Shown: piece after piece, positions 22,181 to 64,000 of the stretch
Numbering within the stretch: the stretch's first letter is position 1
How the letters are laid out: every line of letters begins with the position of its first letter
Assembly (NCBI GenBank): GCA_905250025.1
Contig: CAJNOJ010000075.1
Coordinates: 310,001 to 374,000 of the forward strand
Reading direction: 5' to 3'
DNA length: 64,000 nt
From: Adineta ricciae
Lineage: Eukaryota; Rotifera; Eurotatoria; Adinetida; Adinetidae
Notes under the pieces: generated by a model
What the model saw: only the letters and a program-made list of their open reading frames with translations
What the model was told of the DNA's origin: nothing
The model's database searches: none
Translations under genes and position numbers: made by a program

Positions 22181-24892
22181 ATGTCTCAAAACCAATCCAG
22201 TGGAAGTGATCAATCTGCCATTGGAGGTTTGCCTCCAGAAGTGCTAGAAGCTTTGCGTGCTAGTCAAGCAGACGTACAACATTGTGAAAAAGAAAACAAA
22301 AAATTAGAAGATATGAAGACAACAGCTGTTTCGGAGTGTTCAGTTATTGAGAAGCAGATTGACACTATCGTCGATGAAAGCGCAGAGATAGTTACAGAAT
22401 TGAGACAAGAGGCTGAGAAGATCAAAGAATTGGAAGAAGAGAAAACAAAGATCTACGAAAATCAGATTACACGTATGAATGATGCATCGACAGAATCAGT
22501 GAAAATGACCGAATCAAAAGATAAGATTGGTGATTATCAACGTGAACTGAAAAGATATGAACAACAATTGAACGAGCTCGAGAAGGAAAATCAAAAGATC
22601 AACGAGGAGCACGAGAAAGTTTTAAACGAACAAAGAGCTCTAGAAAACGAAATGTCCAATATTCAACGTGAACGTGAAGAGAACGAACAACTACTTAGTG
22701 AAGCAATGGATCGTCAAGAGCGATACGAAAAAGAAGTCGAAGTGGTACGACAGCTGATTGATGAAATTCAAACGAAAATTAAAGAAAATGAAGTTAAGCT
22801 TCAGGATCTTGTTCGACAACATCGTGAACTGGAGAGCCGGAAAAAAGATTTAGAAAAAAATATCGAACAATTAAAAGAAAATATTGTTAAATTGGAAATG
22901 GTTCTCCTTGCCAAAGAGGAAAGAGTAGCACGTTTAGAACAAGAGGTTAGAAAACTTGAAGAACGAATCAAAGAAATCGATGAAGAGCTCGAACAAGTAC
23001 GCGAGAAAATTGTTAAAGTTAATGAAACAATCCAAGAGTTACAACGAGATGTTGAAGAAAACAAAGTGAAAGTCGATGAGCTCGAAAGAGATGTGAAGGC
23101 ACTCGAAACTGTACGTCGTGAATTGGAAAAACAAGTTCAAGTGCTAGAAGATGAGCTTAGCAATAAAACTAATCGATTACAACGTCTTCAACAAAAGATC
23201 ACTGCGGTTCAAGATCTGTTCAACCAATCAGACACGAAAATCAAACAACTCGAATCTCAACGTGAACAACAAACGACATCAATCAACTATTTTGACGGAG
23301 AACAAAATCGATTAGAAGAATTAAAGACTCGTCAAAAGAATGAAACTGATGCATTGCACAATGATAAAGAAACAGCTATTCACGAGCGACAAACAGCTGA
23401 GAATGATTTTAAGAAAGCCGAAACTGATTTAGCGGCTGCCAAACAAACGGAACGAAATGCACAGAATGAATTGGACAAAGCATCAAATGAAGAAAATAGA
23501 ATTAAAGCCCAATTAGATCGAGCCATTTTGGAAGAAAACTTAGCCAAACAAGAAATGGATTCAGCAAAAGCACGAGCCAACGATAGTAGTTCATCAGATA
23601 CAATTTGGGGTTTGGTAGGTATGATTCCATTACTCAGTGCTTTTGCTCAAAGTCAATCGGGAAAAGGTCGAGAAGCTCGAAGTGAATACAATCAAGCGAA
23701 ACAAAATTATGAAACGAAGAAAAATGAGACAAACAGATTGCGTGATGAATATCAACGTGCAAAAGATAAAAAGAAGGATTGTACAACAACATTGAAACAA
23801 GCAAAGAACGATTTAAGTGAACGACAATCTACTTTTCTTCGCAAACAAACACAAATGAATTCAGCTAAAGCGAAAGTTAGTGATTTAATCGAACGACATC
23901 GTTATGCTCAGCGTCAACAAGCTCAAACAGAAACAAATCTACGAATCATTGTTGCTGATTTACAAAAGGCTCGAACACAACTCTCAACTATTACGAATGA
24001 AATCCAACGATATGAAGCAGACAAAACAACACTTAACTCTCAGATCAATGATTTAAAGGATAAATCAGAACAAATGATAGAAGAAATCACAAGTCATCGA
24101 CGAGTTATCGAAGGTAAACGTCGAGATTTGGAAGAGAAAACATCAGAAATTAATGAGAAAACAGCTCAATGTTCATATGCGAAAAGTACATTACAATTGA
24201 AACAAAGTAAATGAAATTTTCTTTCAAATTAAACATATGCAACGATCTTTGAATGGCGTTTAGACGAATGTGAGAATTCCAAGCGAATTTTAGCTGATCT
24301 ATCAAATACAGAGAAAGCTAAAGAACGTGAAAAAACCTACCAACGTGACTTATTAGCATCAGAGAAAAGCACAGTCGAAGAACTTCGACGTGATATCGAA
24401 GTGAAGAAAACAACTCTTCAGCAATGTCAAGATCAACTAATAGAAGTAGACAACGATCTTCGATCTGTCAATGATCAACAACAACAATTGAATGATTCGA
24501 AAAAATCTCTCCGTGATCAACTTCAAACTTCAAGAAATGATCTGAATATTGCCGAAACGAATCATCGAAAAGCACGAGAACAATTTCAAGCACAAAGTCA
24601 AAAAGTGGAAGTATTACGACAAAATTACGAGTTATTGGAACAACGTGATACTCGATTGACGAACACCTTAAAAGGTATCAGTGATCGATCACAGAATAAA
24701 CAAAATCAAATCAAAGATTTTGCCAAATTACAAGAAGTTTGTCGTGACAAAATCAAAGCTGAACAAGTCCAATATGATAAATCGAAAACGATTCTTTTAA
24801 CGTCAGTTGAGAACTTCAGCAAATTACAAGGAGAAATTCAAACCGCTGAGAACAAAATACAAAGCCGAGAAAAAGTCTTTCAACAACTATAA
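22181..24892 (+). CDS. Long coiled-coil protein with a central hydrophobic segment (cluster gene 1)
   Basis: Exon 1 (22181-24206) and exon 2 (24264-24892) join across a 57-nt intron to give 884 residues. Apart from a short N-terminus (GGLPPEVLEALRASQ) the whole protein is heptad-rich Glu/Lys/Gln/Arg coiled coil, with no ATPase head, so it is not an SMC or Rad50 protein. Around residues 473-491 the coil is interrupted by a Ser patch and a hydrophobic stretch, TIWGLVGMIPLLSAFAQSQ, long enough for one membrane pass or an amphipathic hairpin tip. It could be a scaffold or tether for the AAA+ proteins encoded downstream on the same strand. An in-frame TAA ends this reading at 24890-24892, but coiled coil continues beyond it. 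No known family is recognised. Confidence 0.72.
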
Positions 24893-25153
24893 GAACAATT
24901 CGATTTGAAACAAAAGGATTTCAACAATACAGATGTGAATAGAGAAGCGAAGTCAAAAGAACTTGAAAAAATTCAATACAATCTGCAATTACTGAAAAAT
25001 CAACATCAAGAGCAACAATTAAAACATGGAAAACGTATTGCTGATATCGCAGAAAAACAGAATCAAAATTATCAATCAATAATCAACGAAAACAAGAAAC
25101 AAAATATTGAAACAATTTCATCAGAAAAACAACAGACAAAATGGTCAAACTGA
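24893..25153 (+). other. In-frame continuation of the coiled coil beyond the TAA
   Basis: Directly after the stop the same frame stays open for 86 more codons (EQFDLKQKDF ... SKELEKIQYNLQLLKNQ ... QQTKWSN) and ends at TGA 25151-25153. Heptad character is unchanged. Either the TAA is a nonsense mutation or sequence error, or a weak 42-nt GT-AG mini-intron (24875-24916, no pyrimidine tract) removes it. Confidence 0.55.
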
Positions 25154-25331
25154 ACATTGAAATGGATTTATATTAATCTCGATTTGGACATTTTTTGATT
25201 GCCTATCTTATCGTCGAACTTCTATGCTTGTATTATTCAAGATTTTTCTTTGCGATGTATCTTCTCTTGAATCTTTCTGCAACAATTTCGTTTTCGTTTT
25301 TCTTTAAAGTTCACAACAAAACCATTTTCTT

Positions 25332-25340
25332 TGTTTTTAG
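25332..25340 (+). promoter_or_regulatory. Acceptor-like site before cluster gene 2
   Basis: TGTTTTTAG ends 14 nt before the ATG at 25355 and 187 nt after the last stop of gene 1. No matching upstream coding donor in frame was found, so it is a candidate spliced-leader trans-splice acceptor. Confidence 0.45.
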
Positions 25341-25354
25341 ATATCTGAATAACG

Positions 25355-28300
25355 ATGGTCGACAACAAGTATACACAACCGGAAATTCTATTTTCTCCAT
25401 TTCCTGATCGTTATTCGACACCTTCAAAGACAAGTGAAGAGTCGAATGAAGTTGAAATTCTAAAATCGATCATTTTAAACATTTCTATTAATTATGATCG
25501 TGAAGGACGAGTTGAAGCTTTAATTAATGAATTACGTCAATCGAATTCTCATCTGGAAAAACTTCATCAATGTCAACATCGTTCAATTCTTCATCAATAC
25601 ATCTTAGAATCGACTCGAACACCTATTGATCTGAGTAAACAGGAAAAACGCACATCATATCGACCAAATTTAATCATTCGAACAAATGATGCTCATGGAG
25701 TTTGGATTCATAACCATTTGTTGACTCTTCTCTCATTAGAATATTCCTGTGATACAGAATTTCCTCCTTTATGGAAGACTGATGAGGAAACAAAAGTACA
25801 AATTAGAACGATCAAAAATTATCAACAGGAAAAAAATAATCAAAGTTCAATGTCTAAAATCACAAACGAAGAAGAACAAAAGCTTCCTGGCTTTCTCAAA
25901 GCCATTTGTCGTCAATATCAACGAAGTGAAGATCTTGCCGAAGACTGGGAGAAAAAATTAAACGGTGAGAAAAATCTAAATCTAAGCGGGACATTTCTAA
26001 GGAATAGAATGATATTTTGAAGATGTAGAGCTTTTCACGGTCCACATAGTTTGGTTATCATAGGAGTGCAGATTCGTGATGTTCTTTTCTTTGAAACTAT
26101 CAGGAATCGAACACTAACAAAATAGCTTTGTATTTTTCTATATTATCATCGTGTAAAGATATGTAAAGTGTATCAAAAGAAAAATTCTTTTCGAATCTCA
26201 ACTTAAAAGCGGGAGAATAGGGTTTTTTGTTTTGATTTTAATCAGAACTCCCAGACTCGTTAATTTCACTGATAGGTCTCGTCTAAACACATGATATCTG
26301 GAATGAGATGTAAAAGACTACGACACATGTTCAGCAAATTAGATGTATACAATGTAAATAATAATGAAATAGAATACACTTTGTGTAAAGGTTCTGGATT
26401 TGATTATTTCCGTAGGTGAGAACATTGACACTGTGGAAAATCTTCGTCATGCTGTGGCGAATGAGCGAATTTGGAATGAGATTAAATCTATTACATTAAT
26501 CGGCAAAGAAATGATCAAAAATTATGTTCAACTAAATGATCCGTCATTAAATCAAAAACAATCAAAGATCGATTATGATACTTCAGATGCGACACTTTAT
26601 GCTGATATTCATCGAATCCGACGTTATTTTCATCATATTACAAATACATTGCAATTTACAAGTTATCTAAAAAAAGAAGCTGTTGTCTCTGCCATCATTG
26701 AAACACGAAAAACATATGCTGATGATGGAAATGTTCTCAATACAATTGAATCGTATCTTCAAACATTTTGTTTGGAAAATCGTCCAATCGATCGAGAAGG
26801 TCATGAAAAAAAATTATTGGAATGGAAGAAAGAAAAGAAAGAATTAGAAGAGGAAAATGAACGTTTACAAGAGGAACTAAAGAAATATGAAGCTGATGTT
26901 CAACAAGCTGAAAGTAAAGTTCGTCTTGAAAGAATTGCAATGAATAACATTGAACGAGATTGTCGACGTATTATCGACGAAGTAGAAAAGTCCATCAAAG
27001 AAACAGCAACTCTTGATCGAAGTAAATCATTGCGTGATTGGACTGATCAACGAGAAAGAGCAAAAAAGAAAAAATTCAAAGCAGAATCTGATTTGAAAAA
27101 AGGTAAAGATCGATTAGAAGAGGTTGAAGCTCAATTTGCATTGAAAATCGAACCAATCCGCAAGATTCAATGTACTATCATTGAAAATGAAGCAAAAATC
27201 GAAGATCTCAATTCATCAATCAACATTGATGGTGAAGATGTACAAAAAAAACTCACCGTCAAGTACGGACGAGGTTTACTTCTCTATGGACCTCCAGGCA
27301 CTGGTAAAACTTTGCGATTTCTTTGTTTGAGAAATATTCATTGATTGAAATGTTTTTAGGTAAATCAGAATTATTGAAACGAGTTGCACAATATGCGGGT
27401 ATCACCATGATCACAACACCATTATCAGCTGGTGAATTAAATCGACCATATGTTGGTGAAACTGAACGTTTATTAGTCGATATAATGAATCGTTCGAATA
27501 CAATTCCATATTTAATTTGTGCAATGACTATTGATGAAATTGATGGATTAGTACCTAAACGAACAAACAATGCTCAACAATCTAAAGTTGATGGAATTAG
27601 TGTTTTACTTTCACATATTGAAGGTGTGAAAAATATACAAAATCTCATTGTTCTGGGTGCAACAAATCGAAGAAATATGATGGATGAAGCATTTCTTCGT
27701 CGAATGCAAGCGAAATGTTTTGTTGGTCGACCATCTCCAACTATTCGAAAGAAATTACTCGAACCGTTACATTATCTCAATGCCGACATTTTCAATAACA
27801 AAATGTTGAATTTTCTCATGAAAATTACCACAAATTTTAGTGGTGCTGCGGTTGTTGCATTGAAATCAAGTATTATCGTTGCAATGAGTTCACATAAAAC
27901 AGTGCCAATTGATGAACGAATCTTTCTTGAATTGGCCAATAATGCTGCTCGTGAATTCAGTTGTTGGTTTGGTATTGGAACTTTACCTGAAATTTGTCGT
28001 CTTTATCCAAATATATTTTCATTGGAAAATAATCAACAAGAAAAATATTCATTAAAAATACCAAATGGTTCACCAACTGGTCGAATTTCTGTTGATTTAG
28101 AAACTCGAAAATGTCTCATTGAATTAGAAAATGAAGCAACTCTTGAAGAAGATTTATCTAAAGAAGAAAATTCTACAAATACTTTGCTTTCAAGATTTCT
28201 CAATGGTTGTGCCAGTAGAAATATTGACACAATTCAAATCATTGATTTGAATTTTCTTGTAAAAAATAATGCATTTGAAGAAAATCAAATCTTCGAATTT

Positions 28301-29194
28301 TTAACAACAATTTTTGAAGGTAAATCATTTTCAATAAAGATCAGTTGCATTCAGATTTGTTTTTTTTTATTAGAATGCGATGAATATAATCGTTCAATGT
28401 TGATATTTGATATTGATTCATTGATTATGATTGGTGTTTCCGATTCAGCTATGTCAAAATCACAATCGATTTCAAATATTCGTCTTTATCAATTCATTCG
28501 AGAGAAATGCAAAAAAGCTGTCGTTGAACAACAGGTTAACAAATATTTCTCATTTTTGCAAACAATTTTGTGTTTTATTTAGGGTGACGTGAAATTTTTA
28601 AAAGAACGATGGATCGTTATGATTGTTAAAGAAATCTTTCTACGTGATTTATTATTTAAAGATATCAATTTTAAAAAGACACTTCGACAAAAACAAGAAG
28701 AATATGAAGAAGAACAAAAACGTCTCGATGATGAAATACCAAAGACTTGTCCAAAATGTGATCAATCTTATATTCCTTCACAAGTTAATCATGGCAGTTG
28801 TAAATACCACGATGGTTACATTGTTCATATTGATCGCCCAAAAGAAACTGTCAAACAAGATGAAGCTGAACGAATTATTAAACGTATACGATTAGCAAAT
28901 GCGGATTGTAGTCATGATTCGAATCATTCGAAAGTACCCGTTCCAAAATTAATTTGGACTTGTTGTTTAACATTTTTTGCTGAAAATCAACCTTGTAAAA
29001 CTGGTATTTGTGGATTACCTGATCAATTAAAAGATAAAACTTTTGGCAAAGATGAAGATTTAACGATGAAAGTTAAAGAGTTTTTTGAGAATAATCAAGT
29101 AGCGAAAAAGAATATCGATGATTTTATCGCATCTTTGAACAGTACTTCGGAAGTGAAACAAACAAGAAAAACTACTATTACTCGTCCTAAATAA
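25355..29194 (+). CDS. NSF/Cdc48-type AAA+ ATPase with coiled coil and CHORD-like zinc module (cluster gene 2)
   Basis: Exons 25355-25964, 26416-27303, 27360-28319, 28374-28534 and 28583-29194 give 1,076 residues. Residues 1-320 are an unrecognised helical region. A coiled coil (about 327-470, KKEKKELEEENERLQEELKK) leads straight into one classic AAA domain: Walker A GPPGTGKS at 495-502, split by an intron after its sixth residue, Walker B MTIDEID with Asp558-Glu559, and ATNRRNMMDEAFLRRM as sensor and arginine-finger region. This type usually forms hexamers that remodel proteins. Near the C-terminus C929-x2-C932, C946-x2-H949 (HGSCKYHDGY), W998-T-CC (1000, 1001) and a final CKTGIC resemble a CHORD zinc module. 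The stop overlaps an AATAAA, and the next gene's acceptor is only 43 nt on. The CHORD call is from motif memory. Confidence 0.85.
25965..26415 (+). other. Unusually long intron in the AAA+ gene
   Basis: Donor GGTGAG at 25965 and acceptor CCGTAG at 26415 join AAC-G to GT-GAG-AAC in frame. At 451 nt it is about eight times the usual intron here. Exon-like GTGAGAA is repeated at both ends, so the splice could shift. It shows no coding content. Confidence 0.6.
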
Positions 29195-29228
29195 AAGAAA
29201 AACTCTCATTTCTCTGCTTTGCTTTGCT

Positions 29229-29237
29229 TTCTTTTAG
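29229..29237 (+). promoter_or_regulatory. Acceptor-like site before cluster gene 3
   Basis: TTCTTTTAG preceded by a pyrimidine-rich run (TTTGCTTTGCTTTC) ends 10 nt before the ATG at 29248 and only 43 nt after the gene 2 stop. The gap is too small for an independent promoter, which favours trans-splicing of a polycistronic RNA. Confidence 0.5.
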
Positions 29238-29247
29238 ATTAACATCT

Positions 29248-32200
29248 ATGACAAGACAAGTCGATTTTCACAGAATTTGTACACAATTAAATCAAACATT
29301 AAATCGAATTCTGGAATATGATGCAAGTTGTCAACCAGCAAAAAATTCGATCGATATATTAATTCAACAAAAGTATCTTAACGAAAATGAAGCCTCGCAA
29401 GTTTGGAACAATATCATCAATCTTCACGGGATAAAGTCTTTAAATTATAAAAATAAGGTCACATTAATAGTCTATTCAAATCACAAACATCTATTTTGTT
29501 TTCAATAGACATTGGCAATCAATATGATTCAATTGATGGTCTGGTGGTTAATTGAAAAACCAAGTGAAATCAAAAGTGACTTATTAATTAATTTACTTTG
29601 TCAAGAAAATTCTGATGATCAGACAACGGTTGGTATTCATATTCTCTTTTCATTATTCAATATACCTCAATGTAATGAGAAACAAATCGATGATTTGATC
29701 AATCTCATCTTCCAATGTCTTCATTTGAATCGTAATCGATTAAATGAATTCTTACATTTGAATCCAGAAGTTTTTCGACCCATTTGGAAAATTTATTTTG
29801 ATTCTGATGAATCGATTCAATCACGCGAAACACTCAACAAAATTATAGATCTTTATCTTATGAGTGTTCAATCAACTGATGAACTCATCTTGGTGTTGGG
29901 ATCCATCGATTTAAATGATGTACCAGTGAAACATTGTCTTCACAAATGGTCACTTCTCTTTGGTAATTTAGCAAAAAGAAATTTTCTTGATATCGAAGTG
30001 GTAAAATTGCTCTTCGAACAGCTCGATATTTTGAATGTGAACAATCATGAAAATGATTTAAATAAATTAATTTTGAATTTATTAGAACATTGGCCAAAAT
30101 TGACTCAAGATGATCAACAATTATTTATTATCGATCGATTAATTAATTTCATTCAAAAGATATTTTCGAAACGAACAGATCAATCTGTTCATCTTGTTGA
30201 AGATTTGGCAAAACGAATCTGTGCAAAAACATCCGCAAATGATCATCATGCTGGAAACGATTCTTATCTGATTTTAATTGACAAATTTCTTTCAATTTTT
30301 GAACAATTGGAAATATTTTCTGCAATGACCATTATTGATGATGATATTATCGAATGGTATGCCGAATTCTTTCTCAAACAACAAAACAATCTCATCACTG
30401 ATCAATGTTCAACTTTTATAAATATTCTCAAACAAATTGTCAAAATAACGAAGAAAAATTATTTAAAAATTTTCTTCAATTTCACCAAGAAATATCCAAA
30501 CAAAGAATTTCTTTATGAAATCATCGTTAATTCGATTTATCCAAGTACAACTGTACTCAAATTTGTTCAAGAGATTTCTGCTGATGAGATTCATCGATTG
30601 ATATCGAATCTGATCAATGTAATCAACTCGAAATTTATCGATCGATTATTAATAATTATTGAAATATTATCTGAAAATATCCCAACACATCTCATTCTCT
30701 TTCAATCAAATCGTTTTGATGAATTATTAATGAAATGGTTATTAAACGATGATTCATTTTCTACTAATATTCGTCTAATTCGACTTTTACTTGAATTTGG
30801 TACCAAATATGCTTCTCATCATAATGACATTTCTGATTTTCTACTTGAAAAATATTCGACAAAAATGTTTAGAATTGATTTTAAAGATCAAAGTCCATTT
30901 GTTGAAATTCTTCTTTTTTTATCCAATGATATTCAAGAGACAATTTATTCAAAGCGACGAAATGAAATTTTGCTTGAAAGGTTCTTCTATTCTGTTGAAG
31001 ATGAATATTCCGATGCATACGCGTCACATTTATTCAATCTTAGTCAAAATCTTCTCGATCTTAACTTAAGAATAAAGTTAACCGATCTACTCTTACCTTA
31101 CATTCCTGAATTTTTTGGCTTTCTTGATCAATCTGAATCAATTAAAGAAGAAGCATTGAAAATTCTTACTTTTCTTATGAATTTCACGGAGATTGAACGA
31201 ACTTCACTACTTGAAACTATGCACATTAAATTAAATCACGACGAACCTAAAGCTTCGGTTGACACAATCCAAACAACAACAAAGGATATCGATCATCGAC
31301 TAAAAAGCTTTTTTACATCGGAACAAGTTCAATATCGAAACTGCGAACCTGTTCGAGCGACTCATTTTGCTGCTGTTCGAGAATTTCTTGTCAACTTAAA
31401 GGAAGGTGAATTCGATCGATTATTTCGTGAGCGAATTGCAACAGAGAAAGACAACACCGAAATCATTCCCAATCAATTAGTATCTACTCCAACAACGATT
31501 GAAAATGTTTTGAAAATTTGTGAACTTACTTATAATCCGATTCCGATCCTTCTCGAAGGAGGAACAGGTGTTGGCAAAAGTGCAGTAGTTATGGAAGCTG
31601 CTCGACGATGTAATAATCAAAAACTAATTCGATATAGTATGTCTTCACGTGTCACTATTGATGATCTTTTAGGAAAGACAATGCTTAGTTATGATCAAGA
31701 ACAAAAGATTGATCGATTTAAGTTTCTTCCAGGACCATTTACTAGTGCATTTATTAATGGTGATTGGATTCTCTTAGATGAACTTAATTTAGCACAAGAT
31801 ACAGTGTTACAAGCTATTGAATCAGCATTGGATACTCAACAATTGAAGATTTATAATAATGGATCAGCTGAAGAATCGATTCTCAATTATCAAATGAATC
31901 CAAATTTTCGTTTGTTTGCAACACAAAATCCGAACAGTGGTTTCTTTAAAGGGAAGAGAGAACCGTCGTCAAGTTCGTTTTTAAGCCGTTTTCGTCTATT
32001 GATTTTCAAATCTTTGAGTTTGAATGAATGGTATCAAATCGCATTAGAACGATTTCATATGAATCCAATTGAAGCTGAGAAATATGGAGTCTTCCTTGTA
32101 AAAAGATTTCTTAAAAATTTAGAAACAACTATGAATGATCCATCAAAAAATGAATTAATTGAACGTGGGCCGTATGTGACAAATTCTATTCGTGAACTTC

Positions 32201-35200
32201 TCAAATGGATCGATCATCTAAATTGGCAAAGAGAAAATGAATCATGGCCAACTAATGATCACGAATGTTTATCAATGCTCAGTTTCAATGCTTGGTGTAT
32301 CTATGGAGCACGATGTCGCACTATAGGTCGACAATTAATCATTAACATTCTCACTGATTATCAAAGAGGTGGATGGGGAAATCCATTAAACGAAAATCCT
32401 TCTATTCGAATTGGCTTAAAACAACAAAAAATTTACTTTGATCATATTTCTTGTCCAGTTCAGATTCAATCATCATTGTTACAAAATTCTCATGATCAAT
32501 GGACTTCAATCTTTCGTGAAACTATTCCATTTAATCAATCAATTTGGTCATTAGCTTTGGAAATCCACATAACTGTGTATAAAGCATTAATGGATGAGGA
32601 TTTCATTCGTTTACATGGAATCTATTGTATTGATCAATCGTGGTTATATCATTGGTTACATTCAGCTTCGACTTTTCTAAATGAAACTGATCAATTTCTT
32701 TGTCATGGTTACAAACAATATGTTGCTCGTTTACGACATCAAAAAGCATATGAAACTGTTCGAAACTGTTTTCAAATTCATGTGAAAAACATCGATTTAG
32801 CCAAGACTTCTATCGATTCGTCTTCGATTCAAGTCGGAATGCCTTTTATTTTGACAAAACGAGTTTTGCGCACATTTAAAGAAGTTGCTTTTCACGCAAA
32901 TATTCATCAACCAATTCTATTGACTGGTCCTGAAGGATGTGGAAAATCCGACTTATTGTTGACTCTTGCTTGGTTGCATGGTCAACAAATCAATCAATTG
33001 AATATTACAACTGAAACTGAACCATCACTTTTCATCGGCCAAATGACTCCGAATGACATGAAGAATTCAAATGAAAAACTCATTTGGAAAGATGGTTATG
33101 TAACTCAATCGTATGTTAAAGGACATTGGATTTTGTTGGATAATTTTAATAGTGCAGAAGCGTCAGTTATCGAAAGACTTAATCCAATTCTTGAAGATAA
33201 ACCAATGTTAATTTTAACAGAGAAAGGTGACGACAAAGAATTGACGATGCATTGTAATTATCGTCTTTTAGCTACAGTGACAACTCCTCATTTCAGTACC
33301 ACTTCATCAATGAAATTTGATGAATTATCACCTTCGCTTTACAGTCGATTCGCTGTTGTTCATATGCTTGATTTTGATTCGAAATCTGATGAATTAGATC
33401 TATTAGCCAATGGTCTTTTGTCTGATGAAGATGAAAATCTATCAAAATTTGCCGTCGAAATAATTCGTCAAATATGTGAATTTTCATCAAAGAACATGAG
33501 CGCCATTCCTCATTTGACTTTGAGAACGATTATTCGATTCCTCGACAGTGTTTGTCGTCTTTATCAACGATTCAAATCGACAATGGATTCATTATCAATA
33601 CTTTGGAATGCTTATCAAATCACCATCGCAAATCAATTGAAAGGTGAACAGATGAAGAATATTCTATCCAACCAAATCGAAGAAATTCTTAAACGTCATC
33701 GAAATTTATCCACATTTTCAAAATTACCGTGGTCATCGTGGATTCCTCGAAATTCCGAACATATCTTGACTTCAAGTCGAGAAAACTACGCTCTTGCTAT
33801 TCTAGGAGCTGTTCTTTGCAATATTCCTGTACTTCTCGAAGGCCCATCAGCTGTTGGTAAAACTAGTTTGATTCATCATTTATGTCAATATGTTGATTAC
33901 AAAACAATGTTCAATCGAGATTGTGTATCGTCGATTAAACTCGAACGAGTTAATAATAGCGAAACAACGACTATTCAAGATTATTTGGGCACTTATTTAC
34001 CGGTTAACGATGGATTTCTTTTCCAAAAAGGTGCTCTTTATCGTGCAATGGAAAACGGTTGGTGGTTTCTTGCTGATGAATTTAATCTTGCTGATCCATC
34101 TGTTATGAGTGTTCTTTTCCCATTACTTGAAGGGAAAAATTCGATTGTTATTCCATCAACTGGTGAAGTAATTTATGCTAAAGTTGGCTTTCAATTTTTT
34201 GCCACACAAAATGATTCTTCATATCTTAATCGACATCAATTACCGAATTCACTTCGTAATCGTTTTCTTGAAATTCAATTTGATGATTTTCCTAAGAATG
34301 AACTTTGTGAAATTCTTCACAAACGAAAAAGAACCTGTGAAAGAAATTTGAATGAAGATGATTCTAATCGATTAGCTGATTTTTATCATCGATTGATTAA
34401 CACTCAAGCTCGATTAACTTTTCGTGAACTAATTAAATGGATTCATCGAGATGAACTTTTCTCCTCTAAAAACGATCTTTCACCATTGACGGGATTGTCA
34501 TTACTTATTGCAAAATATCCTTTGCAATCAAATAGTCGACAACAAATTATCGAACAATTGAAAGATATTTGGAAAACAAAAGAATCTTTATTAAATCCCA
34601 AGTTTGAAATCAAGCAGATCGGTGGAAATATCCTTCGATTTCAAGAAAATAATCTTTCGATGGACATTGAAACAATTCCATTCGAACAAAGTATTGTTTC
34701 ACTTTCACCTGAATGTTTTAAACAATCGCTCATTCGTCTTGCTCTGGCTGTCAATGCTGGTGAACCCGTACTTTTAATTGGACCAAATTCCTATAAAAGT
34801 CTTCTTGTCGATACTTGGGTCAAATTAATCAATCGTTCTGATGATTTCATCAAAGTCCATTTGACTAATGATACCGAAACAAACGATTTAATTGGTGAAA
34901 TTCAACCGTATAATTGTATCGATTTGCTGAAAAGATTAGGAAATATTGTTCAAAACTTTATTCAACGTTTTCGAAGTTTGTGTTCAAATGAACGAGATGA
35001 AAATATTGAAGGAACATGTCTAAAACAATTGACTTTGTTAGTCAACAAAGATCTTGTTGAAGCAATAAGAAACTTTGAAAATCTTTCGAATATTTCCAAT
35101 GAACAATATCAAGAAAAAGATTTCAAATTCAATAATTTCAATCAATTACATGAACAAACTGAAAAATACCTATGGCCAAGTATTAAGAAGTCAAATGAAC

Positions 35201-53200: not shown

Positions 53201-54208
53201 GCACTTCACACTTGTTTAACTTTACCAGGTTGGAAAGCAAATCATGGTCGATTTATTGTTTTAATCACAGACGCACCAGGACACGGTGATCTCAATGATT
53301 TATTCCATGATGATCATCGACAAGTAATTTTCGAAGAGAAAACAAATTTATTTTTCATTTGAATCTTTTTTTAGGGAACTGATGAACATTCATTTACGAA
53401 GATATGTGAACGTCTTCTTCTCAACAATTATGATATCGATTTAATCTTGTGTTCAATTAAAAAAGAAGCTACAATGAAAATGCAAAGCGCTTTTGCGAAT
53501 TATTATCGTCAACATGAAGAGAATACAGATAAAACATTTACTGTTGTTTATCCATTTGAAAATAATGAACATCTTATTCAATCATTTCATTATATTTTCG
53601 TTCTTGATGGATCAGATTCGATGGAAAATCATTGGCAAACAATGATTGCAGCATATCAGACATTTATTCAATGTCGAAAAATGAACCAAGATTTCGATGA
53701 TATATTCAGTGTTATACAATTCAGTGATCAAGTAAACATTGTCTATGAACAGAAAAAACTTGACGAAGCTCATCATGAGATTCATCGAATTGGTGGTGAG
53801 ACAAATTATGAAATTGTTTTGAGAAAAGTAGAAGAGATGATTGAAAATGATCAAAGTCAATCAGTAATTGTGATGATTTTCATGTCAAATGGAAAAAATC
53901 CATCAAAACAAAAGCCTGTTGAAATGATGAAGAAAATTCGAAATCAGAGTAAAGAAAAACATGATTTCGTTTGTCATACTGTCGCTTTTAGTCAAACATC
54001 GAGTTCAAATCAAGAAAACATCAAATTAATGGAGGATTTAGCAAAAGTTACTGATGGAATTTGTTATCAAACATTCAATGACGATCAGTTTAAAAAACCT
54101 TTTGTTGAAATTGCTGTTAATGACAAAACAACAAACAAATTGGTTCGAATTCTATGTGAAAGGCTTTCAGAAGCAATCGGAAAACAAATCTTAATTGATT
54201 TTCTGTGA
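29248..54208 (+). CDS. Giant midasin-like protein: six AAA+ modules, ASH/Ig-like region, four vWA domains (cluster gene 3)
   Basis: Exons 29248-29457, 29509-51816 (22.3 kb), 51869-53323 and 53375-54208 give about 8,268 residues. After 650 helical residues come six MoxR/midasin-type AAA+ modules with Walker A at 754 (GGTGVGKS), 1210 (GPEGCGKS), 1515 (GPSAVGKT), 1828 (GPNSYKS, defective), 2371 (GPPGVGKT) and 2704 (GDVCSGKT). Walker B is DE in modules 1, 3 and 5 but DN in 2 and 6, so those are probably inactive. An acidic insert (VFDDDDYQYDDD) sits in module 4. About 2,700 residues of helical tail with coiled coils near 3400 and 4460 follow, then a beta-rich region (about 5580-6150) like ASH/MSP repeats. 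Four vWA domains end the chain, with MIDAS Asp at 7269, 7629, 7863 and 8069. Midasin (about 5,000 residues, one vWA) removes ribosome-assembly factors; this protein is larger and differently decorated. Confidence 0.9.
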
Positions 54209-54283
54209 TTTTCGATCGAAATCTTGTTTTGTTCTATTTAAATAATCATTTTCTTTCTTTTGTCAATGTTGTTTTGTTTGTTT

Positions 54284-54293
54284 TCTATTTCAG
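54284..54293 (+). promoter_or_regulatory. Acceptor-like site before cluster gene 4
   Basis: TTCTATTTCAG, after a T-rich run, ends 85 nt beyond the gene 3 stop and 45 nt before the ATG at 54339. It follows the same pattern as the sites ahead of genes 2 and 3. Confidence 0.45.
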
Positions 54294-54338
54294 ATTATCA
54301 AATATAAAATTCATTCGAATATCTTGAAGAGAATTCGA

Positions 54339-57300
54339 ATGGCTTCTACATCTGTACCAAATTACCCTAATCGAGAAATTTCTCAAACATTTAAAGATAT
54401 ACTTGACAATAAATGTCAATCACCGTTGATTTCAACTATAAACATTCTTCGACAAGTTGTTGAGGAATTCAAAACTCAAAATCAATCAAAAGATGATCCA
54501 AATAATGAAAATATTCGTAACGCTTTTGAACGATTAAGAGAAATTGTTGGAGAAATTACGACAAATAGTATCGATGATCCATATGAAATCTCTTTCATCA
54601 TGGACACATTGATTCTTCCCTGTTTTCAATTTTATTCAACACATGAATTATTTTCGAAAGAATTCTTTCGACTATTTGCTCGTGTCATATCCCATTCATT
54701 TATTAGGAAGGACAAAGATTATCTCAATTCAATTGCCATTATAATCACTCGTTCAGTAATTTATACATCGAAAGCAGACATTATGAATTTAGATAAATGG
54801 ACCAAGGAGAAATGGTTGGGAAAGAGAAAAGATAGAAATCGATTAATTTATCAATCAGACAAAGAATTTCCTTTCAAAGAAAATTCAAACATTGTCAAAA
54901 CTTTAACGGATAACAGTAAATATCCTGTGGATTTTGATTCTCAATTAGTCCATTGGATTAATTCAAATCAAATTTCCCGACGAAAGAGCGAAAGTATTGA
55001 AACTATTCTCATGTGTTTAACTGATCTAGAATGGATTTTGCAAATTCTCATTAATAGTGACAAATGTCTGTCGCTTTTGCTTTCCTTTTCCATAAAAAGA
55101 CCAAGAATTCGAAAGATTGAAATCAACGATCGAAACAACGATCAAGCGATTGCTAAGCTTCAATCAATTCAAAATGAAATCATTGGTCAATATGAATATT
55201 TATCGTTAAATCGTTTCGATAATTTTATAAATGTTCGTTGTCAAGTCGAATGGTCCGATGGTTATTCATCAATTTATCCAACAAATCAAATTTCATGTCG
55301 AACATCATATTTAGAAATTGTCGCGAAAATGCTCATTTTTAGTTGGAATTTCAATGACAATGAACGATGTTTATGGAATTGTATGATACAAAAAATTCAT
55401 CAAATATCTCGAGATTCGTTAAAAGATTTCGAAGATTTTCTTCTTTATTTTGTTGAACACGATGATGAAAGTATTCGAGACATGTCATTCAAATTATTCT
55501 TATCATTTATCGACGATATCAACATTTCGGAAACGTTGAAACTATCTCGATTAATTTCATGTCGAATGATTGAACATATTTTGGAGAAATGTTGGAAAAA
55601 AAATCGATTTGATCTCGATACAAATGTCATTAATGCATGTCTTCGTTCATCATTAACATGGTCAATTAATGAACTTATTCATCTGTTGAAATCATTGTTA
55701 AAAACATTTCATATGATCTTTGATGAACAATCATTATGGTGGACATTCTTTCTTTCACTTATTGAAACAAATCTTCATCGATTAACTCTCGTCAAGACTG
55801 ACAAAGATTTTACTGACTTTTCTTGTCAAATTAATCTTTCAATTGCCCAGAGAATTAGTCAATATTCAATCGAAAAGAATAATATCGATTTATTGAAACT
55901 TTTCATCGAGTCTTGCCCTTTTGATTGGATAAAAGTCTTTTTAGAGATGTTATCTGATGAACATACGAAGTCAACAATGTTAAATCAAGGTGTCGAGCTC
56001 TTTCGATTAGCTCGTGTCAAATCTTTTCATCAATGGAATATTTCATCAAGTGAAAAGCTTCTTCTCGATTATTTTCGATTGTCAATCAATCATCAAACGG
56101 GTTTATTTGTCGAATTATTAAAATTATTCAAACAGATCACTCCTCAACATTATTTGAACAACAATACGATTGATTACCGTCAGATATTTTGTCTTTTCAT
56201 CGAAATTTTAGATCGGTCATTTCATTTGCCAAGTGAACATTGTCAATTTCATCGCGAAGTGTTCTCCATTGTTTTACCAATGATCTTCGATTATGTCAAA
56301 CGAGCTTTACTCAACGATTCCATGTTGATTGAAGAAAAAGATCTCGAACGAATTCTTCGATCGACATTTTACATTTCAATTGAAAACACAGATCTTCGTT
56401 GTTTATTTCAATACATCATTCGAAAGGGACGAAAAGATTTGATCAATACGTGGATGGATGAACTTCTTTTATTTTTTTCGAAAGATGATCAATTTTACGA
56501 ACGTTTGCGACTTTTTTCAATGGATGAAAATCAAATAAATGAACTATTAAAAGAAAAACTCGACCAAACAACAACTCTCATTTCAACAAGTTCATCATCA
56601 AATCTTTTCTCAACTCATATTCAACAATCAATGAAAATTTATCTGGAAAATCTTTTAAATTCCAATGAAAATATTCGATTGAGTGTCATTCGTTTGCTCA
56701 TTTCAACTCTAAACGTTCAATCGAATGAGATTGAACAAATTTATCAAATTTTGCCCAAAACATCCAAAGTACAAGAAATTGAAACAAATGATGATGAACG
56801 AGGATGCAATTATTTAATTGAACGACAAGAAAAACGTTCCAAATATCAAATTCCTTTTCAATTAATCAAATCTTCGCATTTTCAACAACTCAATCAAGAT
56901 TTACGTAGATCATTCGATGAAAACGAATCATCAAGCAAAGATCTTTCTGAATTTCGTTCGAATCGATCTTTAACTCAATTTAATTCATTGATTCCAAATG
57001 AACAAATTCATCAACCATTAGTCGAAACCCAATCATTGATTAACAATCGAAAACGAATTATTGAAGCTATTCGAACACCAATTCATCTTTTACTTCAAGG
57101 TGAAACCGGTGTTGGAAAAACCAGTTTAATCATTGATATTGCTCGTCAACTTCATCAACCATTAATTCGTTTTAATTTCTCATCGAAAACTGATCTTGCA
57201 AATCTATTTGGTTCATTTCAATTAAAAACAAATGGAAATCAGATGGAATTTCATTTTGACGAAGGACCATTTACTCGAGCATTTCGTCAGGGTCTCTGGT

Positions 57301-60300
57301 TACTCTTAGATGAAATGAATTTAGCATCACCAAATGTTCTTCAATCAATTGAACAAGCAATTGATTCAGGTATTTTATTTTTATCAAATGTTGAAGATGA
57401 TCGAAATGAAAATGATCAACAAAACAAATCAAATTATCGAATTTATAAAATGCACGACAATTTTCGTCTATTTGCAACACAAAATCCGTCGTTAGGTCGA
57501 TATAAAGATGCACGAAATGTTCAATCGACTTCATTAATGACACGTTTCAATGTTTTTCTTATCAATGGACCTGAACATGATGAATTGATCGCCATTATCG
57601 AACATCTTTTCAAACAAAAATCTTTTCGTTTTACGCTTCAAACACAAACAATGATTAAGCTTCATGAAAATGTTCTTCAACGAATTCAAACGACAAATTT
57701 TACTGAAAAACATACAAATTATTCTCAAATGACTATTCGAGAACTTTTTCGTTGGACTTTTAATCTTTGTCATTATGAAAACTTATTGAAATCCAACGGA
57801 GATTCGATATCTAATCCGAACGGAACATATATCAATGGAATTCTTGCCGAACAAGCGATGATTATCTATGCTTTACGATATCGTCAAAAGTCGAATCGAG
57901 AAGGAATTATCGATGAAATCAAACAAATTTATAGTTTAGATTCTTTATCATTATCGACAAATGTCATTGAACTTCAAGATTCACTCAAAGATTATTTGAA
58001 ATTTCAAATCGATGAAAGAATTCTTTCGAATTTGTATTTAATAAATCTTGAACAAATTATTTCTCATTGGCCAAAAGATGTGTCTCAACCAAGAGAGAAA
58101 GATAATGTGAGAAAAATTATTCGTATTCATAATGAAATCTTCAAGAAACTCCATCTTGGACCAATTCATCGAATTTATCGATGTTCCTACGAATGTCTCT
58201 TATCAATTCTCAAAAAATATTTTGGACATAGTTTAGAAACTTTATCAAGAATTCTTTTCAAAACTTATCTAAATATAACTCGTGATGAAAATCAACAAAA
58301 AATTCTTCTCCAACTTTTGGAAGATCAATGTAATGAATTGAAAAATAAATCAAATGATCTTCATTCATTACCGATTGTTCCTCCACCGTTTTATCTTGAT
58401 AAAGAAAGTCAACAACTGATGAAACATATTCTTTCTTTACCATCACAACAACCGATTCTTCTTGTTGGACCCGAAGGTTCAGGTAAAAGTGATTTTGTTC
58501 AAAGTTTAGCCAATCTTTGTCAAGTTCGTTGTGAACATTTGTATTTAACGCCACAAAGTGAACCATCATCATTAGTTGGTTCATTAGTTCCACAAGGCAA
58601 ATCACCTATTTGGCAAAATGGATCTGTAACTGAAGCGATTGAAAAAGGTTATTGGTTAATTTTAGAAAATCTTTCCGAAGCATCGTCTGTCGTTCTTGAA
58701 CGTTTAAATTCAGTTTTAGAACAACCACCACAATGGATTTTACTTGAAAATAATCAACTTGAACCAATGAAAGTTTCAAAAGATTTTCGTTTAATTGCAA
58801 CAATTTCACCACCAGCATTAAAACGTCTTCAAAATGCTTCAATTGCAATTAATCGAGAATTATCACCAGCATTGTACAATCGATTTACAATATTTTATTA
58901 TGAAGGTCTAAATTTAACATCTTGTGAAACATTTACTCAATTATTTCAAACATATTATCCAATTGATGATAAAGATCTTTTAGATTCTTTATACGATTTG
59001 ATGCAAGATGAGAAAATGACAAGTCGAGATTTTGTTCGATGGATCGATTGTGCTTATCGAATGAAACATTCCAAATATCTTTCCTCGATTTCAATCAATG
59101 ATGCTTCAGTTTTACTTTCAGCATTTGATTTAGTTTTCTCTTCGCTATTAGAAAAATCTATTCAAATCAAAGAGTATCTCCGGTCAAAAGCGGATAAGAA
59201 ATCAATTGATTGGTTCGATCTTTCAATTCCACAGACCATTCGAGATGAATATCAACATTATATAATCGATTCTCAAATAACTCCATCGAGATACGAAGCT
59301 GCAAAACGTATTTGTGCTTCGATTATTTGTTCTCGACCAATTTTACTTGAAGGACCCGCAGCAACTGGAAAAACAAGTCTCATTGATTATTTATCAAAAT
59401 GTTTCGAAAAATATCTTTATCGAATCAACAATACACAAGATACGACTATCCAAGATTATTTTGGTTCGTATATGCCAAATGGAGAATTTCTTTTCGGTTC
59501 TTTATCACGAGCAATGTCGGAAGGCGAATGGTTCGTTGCGGATGAATTTGATTTAGCTGAACCAGCGGTGATGAATGTTTTATATCCAATACTGGAAGGT
59601 CAACAACAAATTCTTATTCCCAATACAAATAAACGATTATTTATCCATCCAGAATTTCGTTTTTTTGCGACACAAAATGGAATGAATTATCTTGGAAGAA
59701 AACAATTACCCATTACATTACGATCAAGATTTCTCGAAGCTCCATTTCAATCATTTACTGAAGATGAATTCAAATTTATCATTATTCAAAGAAATCGAAC
59801 TGAATCGAAAGATTTTAATAAAGAACTCACAGGATTTGCCGATTGTTTAGCATCAACAGTAACACATTTGAATGGTTATGTCGATGAAAAACAAAGATTT
59901 TTATTTGGAGGAGATCGAATCAAATTAACAATGAGAGAAATTATCAAATGGATTCGAAGAAAACAAAATAAAAAATCGATTTCATGGCAAATCATCGGAT
60001 TAACCTTACTCGAATCTCGAGTACCAAAACAATATCGTCAAGAATTTCTCAATTGTTTTCAATATGAAAAGACTTTTTCACAATTTGTTGATCTTTCGTT
60101 TAAAGTTCAAATTCAAAAAGATCTCATTTCTCTTCATAATGTTAATTATGAACCGATTTCATTTAAGTTTTATAATGAAAAATATGCTAATGAATCGAAT
60201 CTTTCTTTCGCACCACAAACATTTCTTTTGTCTCTCTGGAGAATATTCGCTGCTGTTGAAGAAAAAGAACCAATTCTTCTTATTGGTCCAACATCATCGA

Positions 60301-63300
60301 AAACCCATTTGATTCGAACGTGGTCAAAATTAATGGCGAATGAAAATAATCTTTGTATCATAACATGTTCATCTGCAACTGAAACAAGTGATTTAATTGG
60401 ATCAATTAGGTAAATATATTCGTTTCGCTTCATAAAAAATCACTTTGTTTTTCTTTTTTCAAAGACCTTATACTCATGCCGAAGCGTTTTCTCTATTTGT
60501 CAAATGTCTCCGTGAATTTTATCAACGATTGATAAATATTCTACAGGATAATCATTCGTTAATGGAAAGTTATCTTCAAAATATTAATCGTCTAAGTCAA
60601 ATTATTGAAGATTTTCTCGTTCGACTCAAAGATGATCAAAATCGAAAACGACTAAGACAATTCAAACATGATCAACAAGTTGATACGATTAATGAAGAAC
60701 AAACTCAATTCGAAGATATTCTATCACCATTATCGCTTTCTGCTCCAAATTCTCGATCAGCCACTCCACCACCAATCTTACAGAAACGTCCTTTACAATT
60801 CGCTAATGATGATCAATCTTCGACAAGTGACGATGGAAGTGTTTTTGAATATGAAGCAATGGGAAATGAAGTGGATACAATGCAAACATCTGATGCAGAT
60901 GATGATCCATTTACAACGAAAAGTGATGCTATTAATGAACCATCAACACCTGATGATGTAGATCCATTCGAAAATAATTCGGATAATTTTACAGAGAAAA
61001 TGCCACATGATGATGAAGATGATAAAGATCCATTCGAAGAGAATTCCTTTCAATCAAAAGACGACTATGGAAATCTGATGGAATATTTTATGAAAAATGA
61101 AAATGATCTGTCGACAACATCATCGAATAACAATGGAATATCTTCAAAGCAAAATAAAGAAAAGAATCCAATTTGTGAAGCATTTCAATCAATTGAAAAT
61201 TCATGGAAAGATATCGTTGACAAAATGAAGTCATTTGAACGAATTTCTAATGATAATGGTCTGACATTGATGAAACACCGTTGTGAAATAATCATCAATG
61301 AACTTCGTCAAGCCATTGAAGAACAAAAATCGAATATATTTCTTTTTCAAGATGGACCTGTAACAACAGCAGTGAAACAAGGTCAAATTTTAATTCTTGA
61401 AGATATGAATGAACCATCACAAGCAGTGATAGAACGATTAAATAGTTTATTAGAAACTGAACCATCGTTTGTTCTCTATGAAGATTTTACCAGTCGAAAA
61501 TTTGGAACAGATGATCAAAATCCTCGTTCAAATATTTCAATTCTTCGATCATTTCAAATCTTCGGAACAATTCATTGTGATGAACAAAATGAAACACGTG
61601 TACAAATTAGTGCGGCGACACGATCACGAATGACAGAAATTCGTGTTGAATCTTATGATTATAAAGATTTAAAATCATTGGCCAAACAAAATCAATCAAA
61701 TGAACCAACATTCCAAGCAGAATTTGAACAAATGATTGACATTTTAGCGGATAAATTGGCACCAACACTCGCTCGAGCAACAATGAAAAGTGAATCACTC
61801 AATTCGAGAGATTTTCTTCGATTTGCTCAATGTTTACAATTACATTATCATTCAATGCCAATGAAACAAGCTGCAGCTTTATCGATTAAATTTTTATTTC
61901 TTGATCGGGTCTCCATGGGAAGAAAATCATCTTTGAAATCAGTCTCAACTAATGATCTTCTCTGGCAACAGGTTTTAAATGCTTTCCAATGTGACAGAAA
62001 TTCAATTATTCTCGATGATCAAATTGATCAATCGATTATTTATACAAATATCGATGATTGGTGTCAAATCGAAAAGAATCAATCGACATCTGAACATCAA
62101 TGGGCTTTACGTCTGAAATCGAATCGATTAATTGCTCCTTTTTCAACAAAAATTATTGAACAACCTCAACTTTCTCACTTTCGATTAGCAGTGACGAAAT
62201 CAGTTTTGAATAATATCTCACGAATCATTTTTTCTCTTCATTCATCGAATCGACAACTTCTTGTTGGTCCACCAGGTATTGGGAAAACAAAAATCATCGA
62301 AGTTTTAGCAGAATTACTTGGTTATCAAATCATTCGAATTAATTTCAGTAATAATACAACTTTTGACGATTTAATTGGTTCGTTTGTTCCTCGAGTTGCT
62401 CATGGACAACGATCATTTCAATTTCAACCAGGTCCACTTTATCAAGCTTTACAAAACGATCGTCATAATACAATAATTCTTTTTGATGAATTAAATTTAG
62501 CCCGAAAAGAATTACTTGATCAATTAACACCACTTTTTGCCAATAGTAAATCTCTTTTTATTCCATCTTTGGGTCAATCAATTGATATTGATGGTTCAAT
62601 TGTTATTGCTACAATGAATCCTGCATCAATTGGAAGTGGACGAGGAAAATTACCACGATCAACTGAATCACATTTTCTTCAAGTTCAACTTTCAAATTTT
62701 GAAGTTATTGAATTAATGCACATTACAATTTCTCTTCTTCGTCGTCATCTCGATGCTGGTTATTTAACAAGTAAAATCATTGAAAAGATCAATCTGTTTC
62801 ATTATGAAATCAGTGAAAAAGCACGACTTAGACAAATCGGTCGTATCGGTGGTCCTTATCAATTCAATTTACGTGATATTGAAAAATTATCAAATCTCAT
62901 TGCAAATCTTTCTGTAACACATCGAGCTCATCTTAATCTTTCGAAATCGATTCCAAATGAAAATCTTTGTGAATCAACTGAAAATGACAATGTCGAAGAA
63001 CAAAATATGATTCGAAGTCTTCATGTTTATTTAGATATTGTCTATGCTTGTCGATTTGAATCAATTAATGAACAAAATCAAGTTCGTGAAATGATTCGAA
63101 AACATTTTCCTTTAATTGACAATTCACCTTTGATCGATCAGAGTCGATCTCAAATAATTGATTGTGATTTAAATCTTCTTGGTTATGTTCGTCTTGGTTT
63201 TGTTTACATTGAAAAGAAAGACTATCCATCAATCTATCCACCGTGTACTCATAGTAAAAAAACTTTAGAGAAATTACAACTACTCGCTGCTACTGTCATT

Positions 63301-64000
63301 AGTAAAGCAACTGTTTTGATTGAAGGTGACGATTGTTCAGGAAAAACAGCGATTATTTGTGAATTAGCACGACTTTGTGGAAGACGTTTATTACTTTTCA
63401 ATCTTAACCATGAAACAACAACTTCGGATTTACTTGGTTCATGGACAATTATTAACAAAGATTTATATGAGAAGAAAAAAATCAAACAAAATCGACAATT
63501 TCTCAATGATCTTCTTCGATTTTCATTGGATCGATTATTACCTATTGCTGAACAATCGAAACAAATAGATCAATTTATTGAAAAGATTATTTCAATTGTT
63601 GAATTTTGGGAAAACAATGAACATTTGGAAACTTTCAATCATTGTCGTTCTTTATTAGAATTTTCCTCGAAACAATCAAATGAATTATTAAACAAATGTT
63701 TAAGTGAAGAAATTGAAAAATATTTCGATTTACTCGATCAAATTGAAGATAATTGTAAATTAATTGAAGGATTATCGGAAGGTTTAACATTTACATTTAA
63801 TAAAGGACCTTTAATTGAAGCAATGGAACGCGGTGATTGGATTCTTTTAGATAATATCAATTGTGCTCGAGGTGATGTGATCGAACGATTAAATTCATTA
63901 GCTGAAAGTGAACCAAGTTTAAATCTTTATGAATCAAATGAAACACAAATTTATCGTCGTGATCAAGGAATTCATCAAGATTTTCGTTTATTTGTTATTG
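54339..64000 (+). CDS. Second giant six-AAA+ midasin-like protein, truncated by the window edge (cluster gene 4)
   Basis: Exon 1 (54339-60409) and exon 2 (60465 to the edge), joined by a 55-nt intron, give more than 3,200 residues. It is a paralogue of the preceding gene in module order and detail: Walker A at 921 (GETGVGKT), 1377 (GPEGSGKS), 1672 (GPAATGKT), 1983 (GPTSSKT, one residue short as in its neighbour), 2625 (GPPGIGKT) and 2978 (GDDCSGKT). Walker B is DE in modules 1, 3 and 5 (LLLDEMNLA, FVADEFDLAE, ILFDELNLAR), EN in 2 and DN in 6. Module 4 again has an acidic, disordered insert (about 2130-2220), here with three DPF tripeptides. The N-terminal 900 residues are helical repeats. Whether it also ends in vWA domains cannot be seen. 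The start is the first ATG after the acceptor at 54293; the frame is open back to that acceptor. Confidence 0.88.

Follow-up and report, generated by a model that had tools for sequence, protein, structure and literature searches.

Single-chain rings of six AAA modules are rare; dynein, midasin and RNF213 are examples. Midasin works on pre-60S particles, where it binds UBL domains of Ytm1 and Rsa4. For midasin, the passages available from one study describe a MIDAS domain that grips UBL domains and docks on the ring, and report that in yeast AAA2-5 are needed and that AAA6, and AAA1 in S. pombe, are without a functional Walker B (PMC6920918). Here we describe a cluster in the asexual bdelloid rotifer Adineta ricciae of genes for a coiled-coil protein (CC), an NSF/Cdc48-type AAA protein and two midasin-like giants (G1 and G2). 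It begins in a window of 64,000 bases, positions 310001-374000 of contig CAJNOJ010000075.1 (C75; the genome, G000, comprises 130.5 Mb). We consider it probable (about 0.6) that the products of the cluster form a single machine dedicated to protein remodelling, one that belongs to the dynein-midasin/MoxR branch of AAA+ motors and is distinct from ribosomal midasin.

The four genes lie in a row on the forward strand in the order CC, AAA, G1 and G2, and the predicted models leave spacers of 201, 53 and 130 bases, in agreement with a reading made earlier from the sequence alone (hereafter the sequence-only reading), which had noted four same-strand genes with almost no spacing. That reading also had the cluster fill 42 kilobases (kb); the four-gene row stands, but the cluster reaches past the window, with the end of G2 at C75:392239, 18,239 bases beyond the window end. 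CC (22181..25153; exons 22181-24206, 24264-24801 and 24943-25153) encodes 924 residues, the AAA gene (25355..29194; exons 25355-25964, 26416-27303, 27360-28534 and 28583-29194) 1,094, G1 (29248..54208; exons 29248-29400, 29509-51816, 51869-53323 and 53375-54208) 8,249, and G2 (54339..82239, of which 54339..64000 is in the window; exons 54339-60409 and 60465-82239) 9,281. These models come from a home-made Viterbi procedure on splice sites and codons whose training set was the long frames of the giants themselves, and one intron of the AAA gene (27304-27359) was placed by hand from the sequence. GT-AG borders are present in all 9 of the 9 predicted introns. A single exon, of 22,308 bases for G1 and 21,775 for G2, holds most of each giant, and since the G1 open frame runs for 7,493 codons (29509-51990) at about 30% GC, it is not a product of chance. 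The A. ricciae protein P0001 agrees with the ring region of G1 throughout (100% identity), and in the stretch that was searched the AAA protein shares 98% of its residues with P0121, an NCBI prediction from the same species; both fit a rotifer origin. The four-gene same-strand cluster is real, and what was observed in the window is confirmed.

Six AAA modules could be aligned in each giant, as the sequence-only reading had proposed. Pfam AAA_5 matches G1 at 1.2e-95 and the two exons of G2, up to the window end, at 5.6e-54 and 4e-40; the midasin lid PF17867 is found in G2 by Pfam, PDB and Pfam matches label G1 midasin-like, as Pfam does G2, and both giants are largely colinear with midasin. The G1 ring (31558..37971, forward strand) has its Walker A positions at 31558, 32926, 33841, 34780, 36409 and 37408 (AAA1 to AAA6) and the Walker B of AAA6 at 37942; the corresponding Walker A positions of G2, also on the forward strand, are 57099, 58467, 59352, 60285, 62266 and 63325. 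Among Pfam matches of G1 and G2 at E 0.01 (two of the lists being the best 25), we found no dynein linker and no stalk or microtubule-binding family; one giant, P0020 from Pelomyxa schiedti, is recorded under the name dynein.

In its tail, G1 has immunoglobulin (Ig)-like domains of the HYDIN/Cep192/ASH type at 1.8e-8 and 2.9e-7, above the Pfam cut-off, with the best match at 47173..47397, and a vWA tail (51091..54055) with MIDAS motifs at about 51091, 52223, 52925 and 53597, all on the forward strand. Motifs 2-4 coincide with Pfam vWA matches (exons 3 and 4); the first, with no Pfam match, rests on its motif and on alignment to a Pfam vWA of G2 and to P0019, the giant of Chlorarachnion reptans. 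The Ig-like and vWA parts of G2 lie beyond the window end. Matches to the same Ig type fall below the Pfam cut-off in G2 (3.7e-4) and in a paralogous giant on contig C112 (5.4e-4), and occur at three places in another on contig C12 (1.6e-8, just below the cut-off; 8.7e-6, above it; and 5.4e-4). MIDAS motifs number four in G1, the C12 giant and Chlorarachnion, three in G2, and three clear ones in the C112 giant. The G1 tail aligns to that of Chlorarachnion at 30% identity over 755 residues and 35% over 234 (463 bits together), compared to at most 96 bits with midasins. Between its Ig-like and vWA regions P0019 also shows a RING-like stretch that stays under the Pfam cut-off (E 1.9e-4); no such stretch is among the Pfam matches of the rotifer giants.

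The ring modules of the giants alternate in their Walker motifs. We surveyed 15 aligned giants, in which P0019 is without AAA1-2, P0016 without AAA1 and the giant of contig C48 without AAA6 in the sequence at hand. Walker B reads DE in AAA1, AAA3 and AAA5 of every giant that shows the site (C48 AAA5 ends after DELN), and Walker A is standard in the same three modules with the exception of AAA1 of Pelomyxa. AAA2 keeps GK and has DN or EN at Walker B, AAA4 has ED there and no glycine ahead of the Walker A lysine, and AAA6 has GK or RK and reads DN. In canonical midasins, Walker B is ED for AAA1 and DE for AAA2-5 (12 of 12, with one Walker A not seen and one with SK), and DN for AAA6 of Diversispora P0025, the sole one examined there. 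Judged from these sequences, the giant clade has a ring layout of its own, with a Walker B glutamate in AAA1/3/5 and none in AAA2/4/6. Mean profile scores over the 15 module pairs were 202 for odd-odd, 193 for even-even and 148 for odd-even pairs; the higher scores within the odd and within the even modules fit descent from a tripled AAA pair.

The family is also separate from midasin by phylogeny. Tree 1 held 31 ring sequences: 9 canonical midasins, taken from 100 listed, and 22 giants, namely G1, G2, those of C12 and C112, 11 grouping with bdelloids and 7 protist or other sequences including P0019 and P0020; P0001 (the G1 gene) and P0012 (the same matched ranges as P0011) were omitted. The giants split from the canonical midasins on a branch of 0.99 with a Shimodaira-Hasegawa-like approximate likelihood ratio test value (SH-aLRT) of 100. 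Pelomyxa forms a long branch in this tree, and a second tree of 23 rows, without Pelomyxa and with the C48 giant, agrees (SH-aLRT 100). Furthermore, two MDN1-like loci on contig C135 (L003 and L020) are 45.5% and 48.9% identical to Argopecten midasin (454 and 432 bits), compared to at most 138 bits with the giants. Thus, a separate MDN1 exists in this genome, seen in pieces only, and the identification of a giant as MDN1, named beforehand as a reason to abandon the idea, is ruled out by the separate clade, the C135 pieces and the Walker B layout. The C135 pieces lie in shorter open frames, of 387 and 161 codons, with 869 for the vWA match on that contig, and the giants thus contrast with a gene of similar type that has more introns. 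A split of G1 and G2 types within rotifers was rejected (p value of the approximately unbiased test, p-AU, 0.008 under LG+G4), a value tempered by long branches, by the use of a quick tree and by a group that was defined only once the first tree was known; for a single clade of G2, P0017 and P0018 the result is borderline (p 0.042). The genome's two best AAA_5 matches (3.4e-33 and 1.0e-25) lie at C10:851700-853170, in another AAA_5 gene, which at 1e-10 matched none of the giants and midasins compared with it.

The trio recurs in this genome. Giants were found on five contigs (C75, C12, C48, C112 and C141), and CC, AAA and a giant lie together at three loci, C75, C12 and C48, in three arrangements. 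Whole-genome searches with CC and the AAA protein scored the best candidates, 43 out of 99 in one search and 66 out of 439 in the other. On C12, AAA (872625-876288) and CC (876385-879345) lie on the reverse strand beside a G1-type giant of 8,595 residues on the forward strand (880552-906550). On the reverse strand of C48, a G2-type giant has its start at 28598, and a first CC gene (CC1, 29468-32498) and AAA (32714-36419) point away from it on the forward strand, followed by a second CC gene (CC2) on the reverse strand. At 8 of the 9 CC places found, all but that on C97, an AAA match adjoins CC and shares its strand; these nine exclude the places on C48, which the CC search missed, the eight neighbours include one fragmentary AAA match (C12:793600-793998), and a single AAA is flanked by two CC genes on C137. 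The claim of a single functional module is borne out to the extent that the trio stays together while orientations differ. That of G1 and G2 as a pair is not, as C12 has a G1-type giant alone and C48 a G2-type giant alone, each with CC and AAA. Contig C141 holds pieces of the G2 type along with vWA tails at two distinct places (104.7 and 108.4 kb), perhaps from tandem giants.

The two partners have recognizable features. The AAA protein matches Pfam PF00004 at 4.9e-18 (2.1e-24 for the NCBI model P0121), has intact Walker A (GPPGTGKS, interrupted by an intron in the gene) and Walker B motifs in its first module (D1), and in predicted structure matches NSF, p97 and NVL over D1 and part of a second module (D2), which upholds its assignment to the NSF type. 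The match to p97 and NVL extends to residue 904-905 of a model with a predicted local distance difference test score (pLDDT) of 72.5; no Walker A was recognized by eye in D2, which in this model is probably dead. The protein also has a long coiled-coil hairpin before D1, an N-terminal region of its own and a C-terminal Cys/His cluster, and seven invariant Cys/His and one Trp outside the AAA core are common to P0245 from Pelomyxa, three bdelloid members and six others. We considered the Cys/His tail as a CHORD domain and rejected it as a resemblance only (Pfam E 0.23 and 3.6 for two of three tails scanned, nothing for the third). CC has a hydrophobic stretch near residue 471, within a loop (469-494) that joins two long helices in the structure predicted from exon 1.

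We also compared these proteins with defence, viral and prokaryotic collections. In PADLOC the AAA protein is matched best by IetA (5.7e-20), over residues 404-681 around the AAA core, and also by TRIP13; NCBIfam gave nothing above its cut-offs, the antiphage-ATPase (IetA) model scoring 66 bits against a cut-off of 510. CC matches coiled coils of the JetC/LmuB type in PADLOC (best 3.7e-9, in a set given without cut-offs), and the giants match there through short AAA stretches of the ring, the vWA exon giving none. We read these PADLOC matches as shared AAA and coiled-coil stretches. Viral (at least 14 loci, AAA-core matches only) and prokaryotic (best 80 of 360) matches to the AAA family fall within residues 388-744 of a 1,150-residue query, in the core and directly beside it.

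The spacing of the genes suggests how they may be expressed. The 53-base spacer between AAA and G1 (29195..29247, forward strand) has a pyrimidine-rich run and an AG ten bases before the ATG, a candidate trans-splice acceptor, and such runs with an AG within 15 bases of the ATG precede two of the three downstream genes, that of G2 being further off. The genome has 44 matches to the rotifer spliced leader followed by GTA, hence by a GT donor (41 with one mismatch and 3 with two), compared to 0 for the reversed control. Together, the 53-base gap, the pyrimidine and AG runs and the leader matches suggest that the cluster is operon-like, with trans-spliced polycistronic expression. The leader matches (on C6, C8, C77, C99 and others) often form inverted pairs about 130 bases apart, and begin with T where the published leader has G.

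Among the best 120 of 286 matches, the only named animals with the giant family are bdelloids. One giant (P0004) and one AAA protein (P0144) are both recorded on a contig of 40,742 bases, and we read three longer bdelloid AAA models whose first part is coiled coil (P0150 from A. vaga, and P0162 and P0163 by precomputed Pfam labels) as putative fusions of CC and AAA. Pelomyxa schiedti has both a giant (P0020) and an AAA protein (P0245). The bdelloid G1-type giants nest among protist ones, a pattern compatible with horizontal gain and also with ancient presence followed by loss. Titles and passages of the open-licence PubMed Central (PMC) literature yielded no description of the family or the cluster.

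Our proposal is the following. The six modules of a giant would fold into one ring in which modules 1, 3 and 5 hydrolyse ATP and 2, 4 and 6 are without the catalytic glutamate, and its long tail with Ig-like ASH domains would bear metal-dependent vWA hands, three or four per giant; on the model of midasin, these would seize a substrate and the ring would swing or pull them. The Cdc48-like AAA protein, its second ring probably dead, may then unfold or release what the giant has loosened, an order suggested by the midasin analogy, and CC might serve as a hairpin-like rod with a hydrophobic tip, a scaffold or membrane tether. The genes would be co-expressed, probably from one polycistronic transcript cut by spliced-leader trans-splicing. 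The interpretation in the sequence-only reading is partly supported.

Several observations weigh against this proposal. No CC or AAA match was found on the giant-bearing contigs C112 and C141 among the candidates scored, a weak absence, so that the adjacency holds at C75, C12 and C48 and is without support at the other two; the majority of AAA places, moreover, are not near any giant found. The C48 protein CC1 scores 36.6 bits against the C75 CC, below the shuffled maximum of 47.4, so homology is not provable and the two are linked only because of CC2 and the C12 protein; the hydrophobic tip is missing from CC1. In the ring, the AAA1 Walker A of Pelomyxa is altered (GDTGTAKT), and module pairs 1-6 (194) and 2-5 (187) break the odd/even rule. 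Pelomyxa P0245 is only 22% identical overall to P0121, and adjacency of its giant and AAA genes is at most putative, the two being recorded on contigs of differing size. With the rotifer AAA query, the protist-type P0208 (6.9e-33) is by score not distinct from ordinary Cdc48 proteins (up to 1.4e-35), so membership of the AAA family rests on the Cys/His tail. Finally, the exact published rotifer spliced leader had 0 matches.

The genes around the cluster are of several kinds. Upstream lie a RhoGAP-domain gene (16891-18194, forward; Pfam 1.1e-20), a nitrilase-family gene (11591-13218, reverse; Pfam CN_hydrolase 1.8e-69), a short secreted-looking protein with an insulin-like cysteine pattern (9881-10255, forward; Ins_beta E 0.0048 and Insulin 0.033, both below the Pfam cut-off) and a single-exon frame of 536 residues (1909-3519, forward) without a Pfam match that by eye looks like an envelope-type glycoprotein, with a signal, a basic cleavage-like site and a C-terminal membrane segment. 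Downstream, C75:403178-407247 holds three tandem paralogous frames about 26-29% identical.

We considered which pathway such a machine might serve, and whether it exists at all. Giants that are duplicated midasins still at work in ribosome assembly, perhaps with the AAA protein as Rix7/NVL, would account for the six-module ring, the lid and the colinearity, and the passages available on canonical assembly likewise have midasin employed with Cdc48-type AAA proteins (PMC6920918). The long stem of the separate clade, the other Walker B layout, the additional domains of vWA and Ig type and the presence on C135 of MDN1-like pieces make this very unlikely. Among functions for a dedicated machine, our best guesses are defence and cilia. 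Intracellular defence or the dismantling of foreign complexes, with a logic like that of bacterial MoxR-vWA conflict systems (PMC7159879, from the portions available), is possible, if on balance unlikely: the family is expanded, with AAA matches on at least 13 contigs, its distribution is patchy, the C75 and C12 CC proteins have diverged fast (25.8% identity, compared to 68% for the AAA core), and the IetA match and the weak RING-like stretch of Chlorarachnion point the same way. Against this, what IetA shares with the protein is the region around the AAA core, the NCBIfam score is far below its cut-off, and the Pfam and PADLOC matches include no effector domain or known third component, although no search was aimed at VMAP. 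A motor for ciliary or centrosomal transport or assembly is a doubtful candidate. Bdelloids are heavily ciliated, and HYDIN/Cep192/CFAP65-type Ig domains occur in both giants and two paralogues (below the Pfam cut-off in G2 and C112), but no ciliary partner was recognized in the cluster, and no other ciliated animal has the giant family among those named in the best 120 of 286 matches.

Two further explanations would dispense with a machine of the host. The distance to a contig end is about 8 kb for the C12 copy, about 25 kb for that of C75 and under 1 kb for that of C48, the envelope-like frame stands 19 kb upstream, and the passages available report midasin homology for planarian Burro open reading frame 1 and a telomeric location for bdelloid Terminons (PMC6431247), which would fit the cargo of a giant transposon or virus with host-like genes. 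Given ordinary neighbour genes (RhoGAP, nitrilase and others by eye) and a viral scan with the AAA family whose listed matches, at least 14 loci, touched the AAA core only, we regard this as highly improbable. That adjacency is accidental or a mere segmental duplication of genes with unrelated functions is quite unlikely as well; two of the five giant-bearing contigs lack partners as far as found, but the trio is kept in three arrangements and CC and AAA are neighbours at 8 of 9 CC places. We retain the dedicated remodelling machine as the preferred explanation.

A broader scheme can be offered tentatively, with clearly less than even confidence. The cluster may represent an ancient eukaryotic class of AAA+ machines, with three active-inactive AAA pairs in a single-chain ring, a multi-vWA grip and its own Cdc48-like motor and coiled-coil rod; its G1/G2-type split would predate rotifers, and it would survive in scattered protists and have been gained by bdelloids, probably horizontally with intron-poor genes, then expanded and run as an operon. 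If so, a ring lineage with fixed alternation of hydrolysing and non-hydrolysing modules would be a natural test of how work is divided between sites, the recurrent partners point to proteins for co-purification with a giant, and a large machine would be added to the set shared by bdelloids and protists and absent from other animals among the matches seen.

Among described proteins, g37061 of Rotaria magnacalcarata has 7,479 residues, some 1,000 of which are similar to midasin at roughly 25%, and is given as a gene of unknown function that was hit by a long terminal repeat (LTR) element (PMC7943196); by length and midasin similarity it is probably a member of the giant family, which the portions available of that paper do not present as a family or cluster. 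The AAA protein resembles the type II AAA proteins NSF, Cdc48 and NVL-Rix7 in its D1 Walker A and, by fold, in the position of D2, and differs in that no D2 Walker A is recognized and in its coiled-coil hairpin before D1, its Cys/His cluster and its own N-terminal region. Bacterial MoxR-vWA ternary systems likewise encode a MoxR-clade AAA, a vWA protein and a further component together; here, in a eukaryote, AAA and vWA are joined in one giant chain and the partners are a Cdc48-type AAA and a coiled-coil protein. With midasin (MDN1/Rea1) the giants share six MoxR-type AAA modules per chain, the midasin lid, a long tail and a C-terminal vWA with MIDAS. They depart from it in the placement of the Walker B glutamate (modules 2-5 in midasin, 1/3/5 in the giants), in having four (G1) or three (G2) MIDAS-bearing vWA domains where midasin has one, and in their Ig-like ASH domains, their length of 8-9 thousand residues and a clade of their own.

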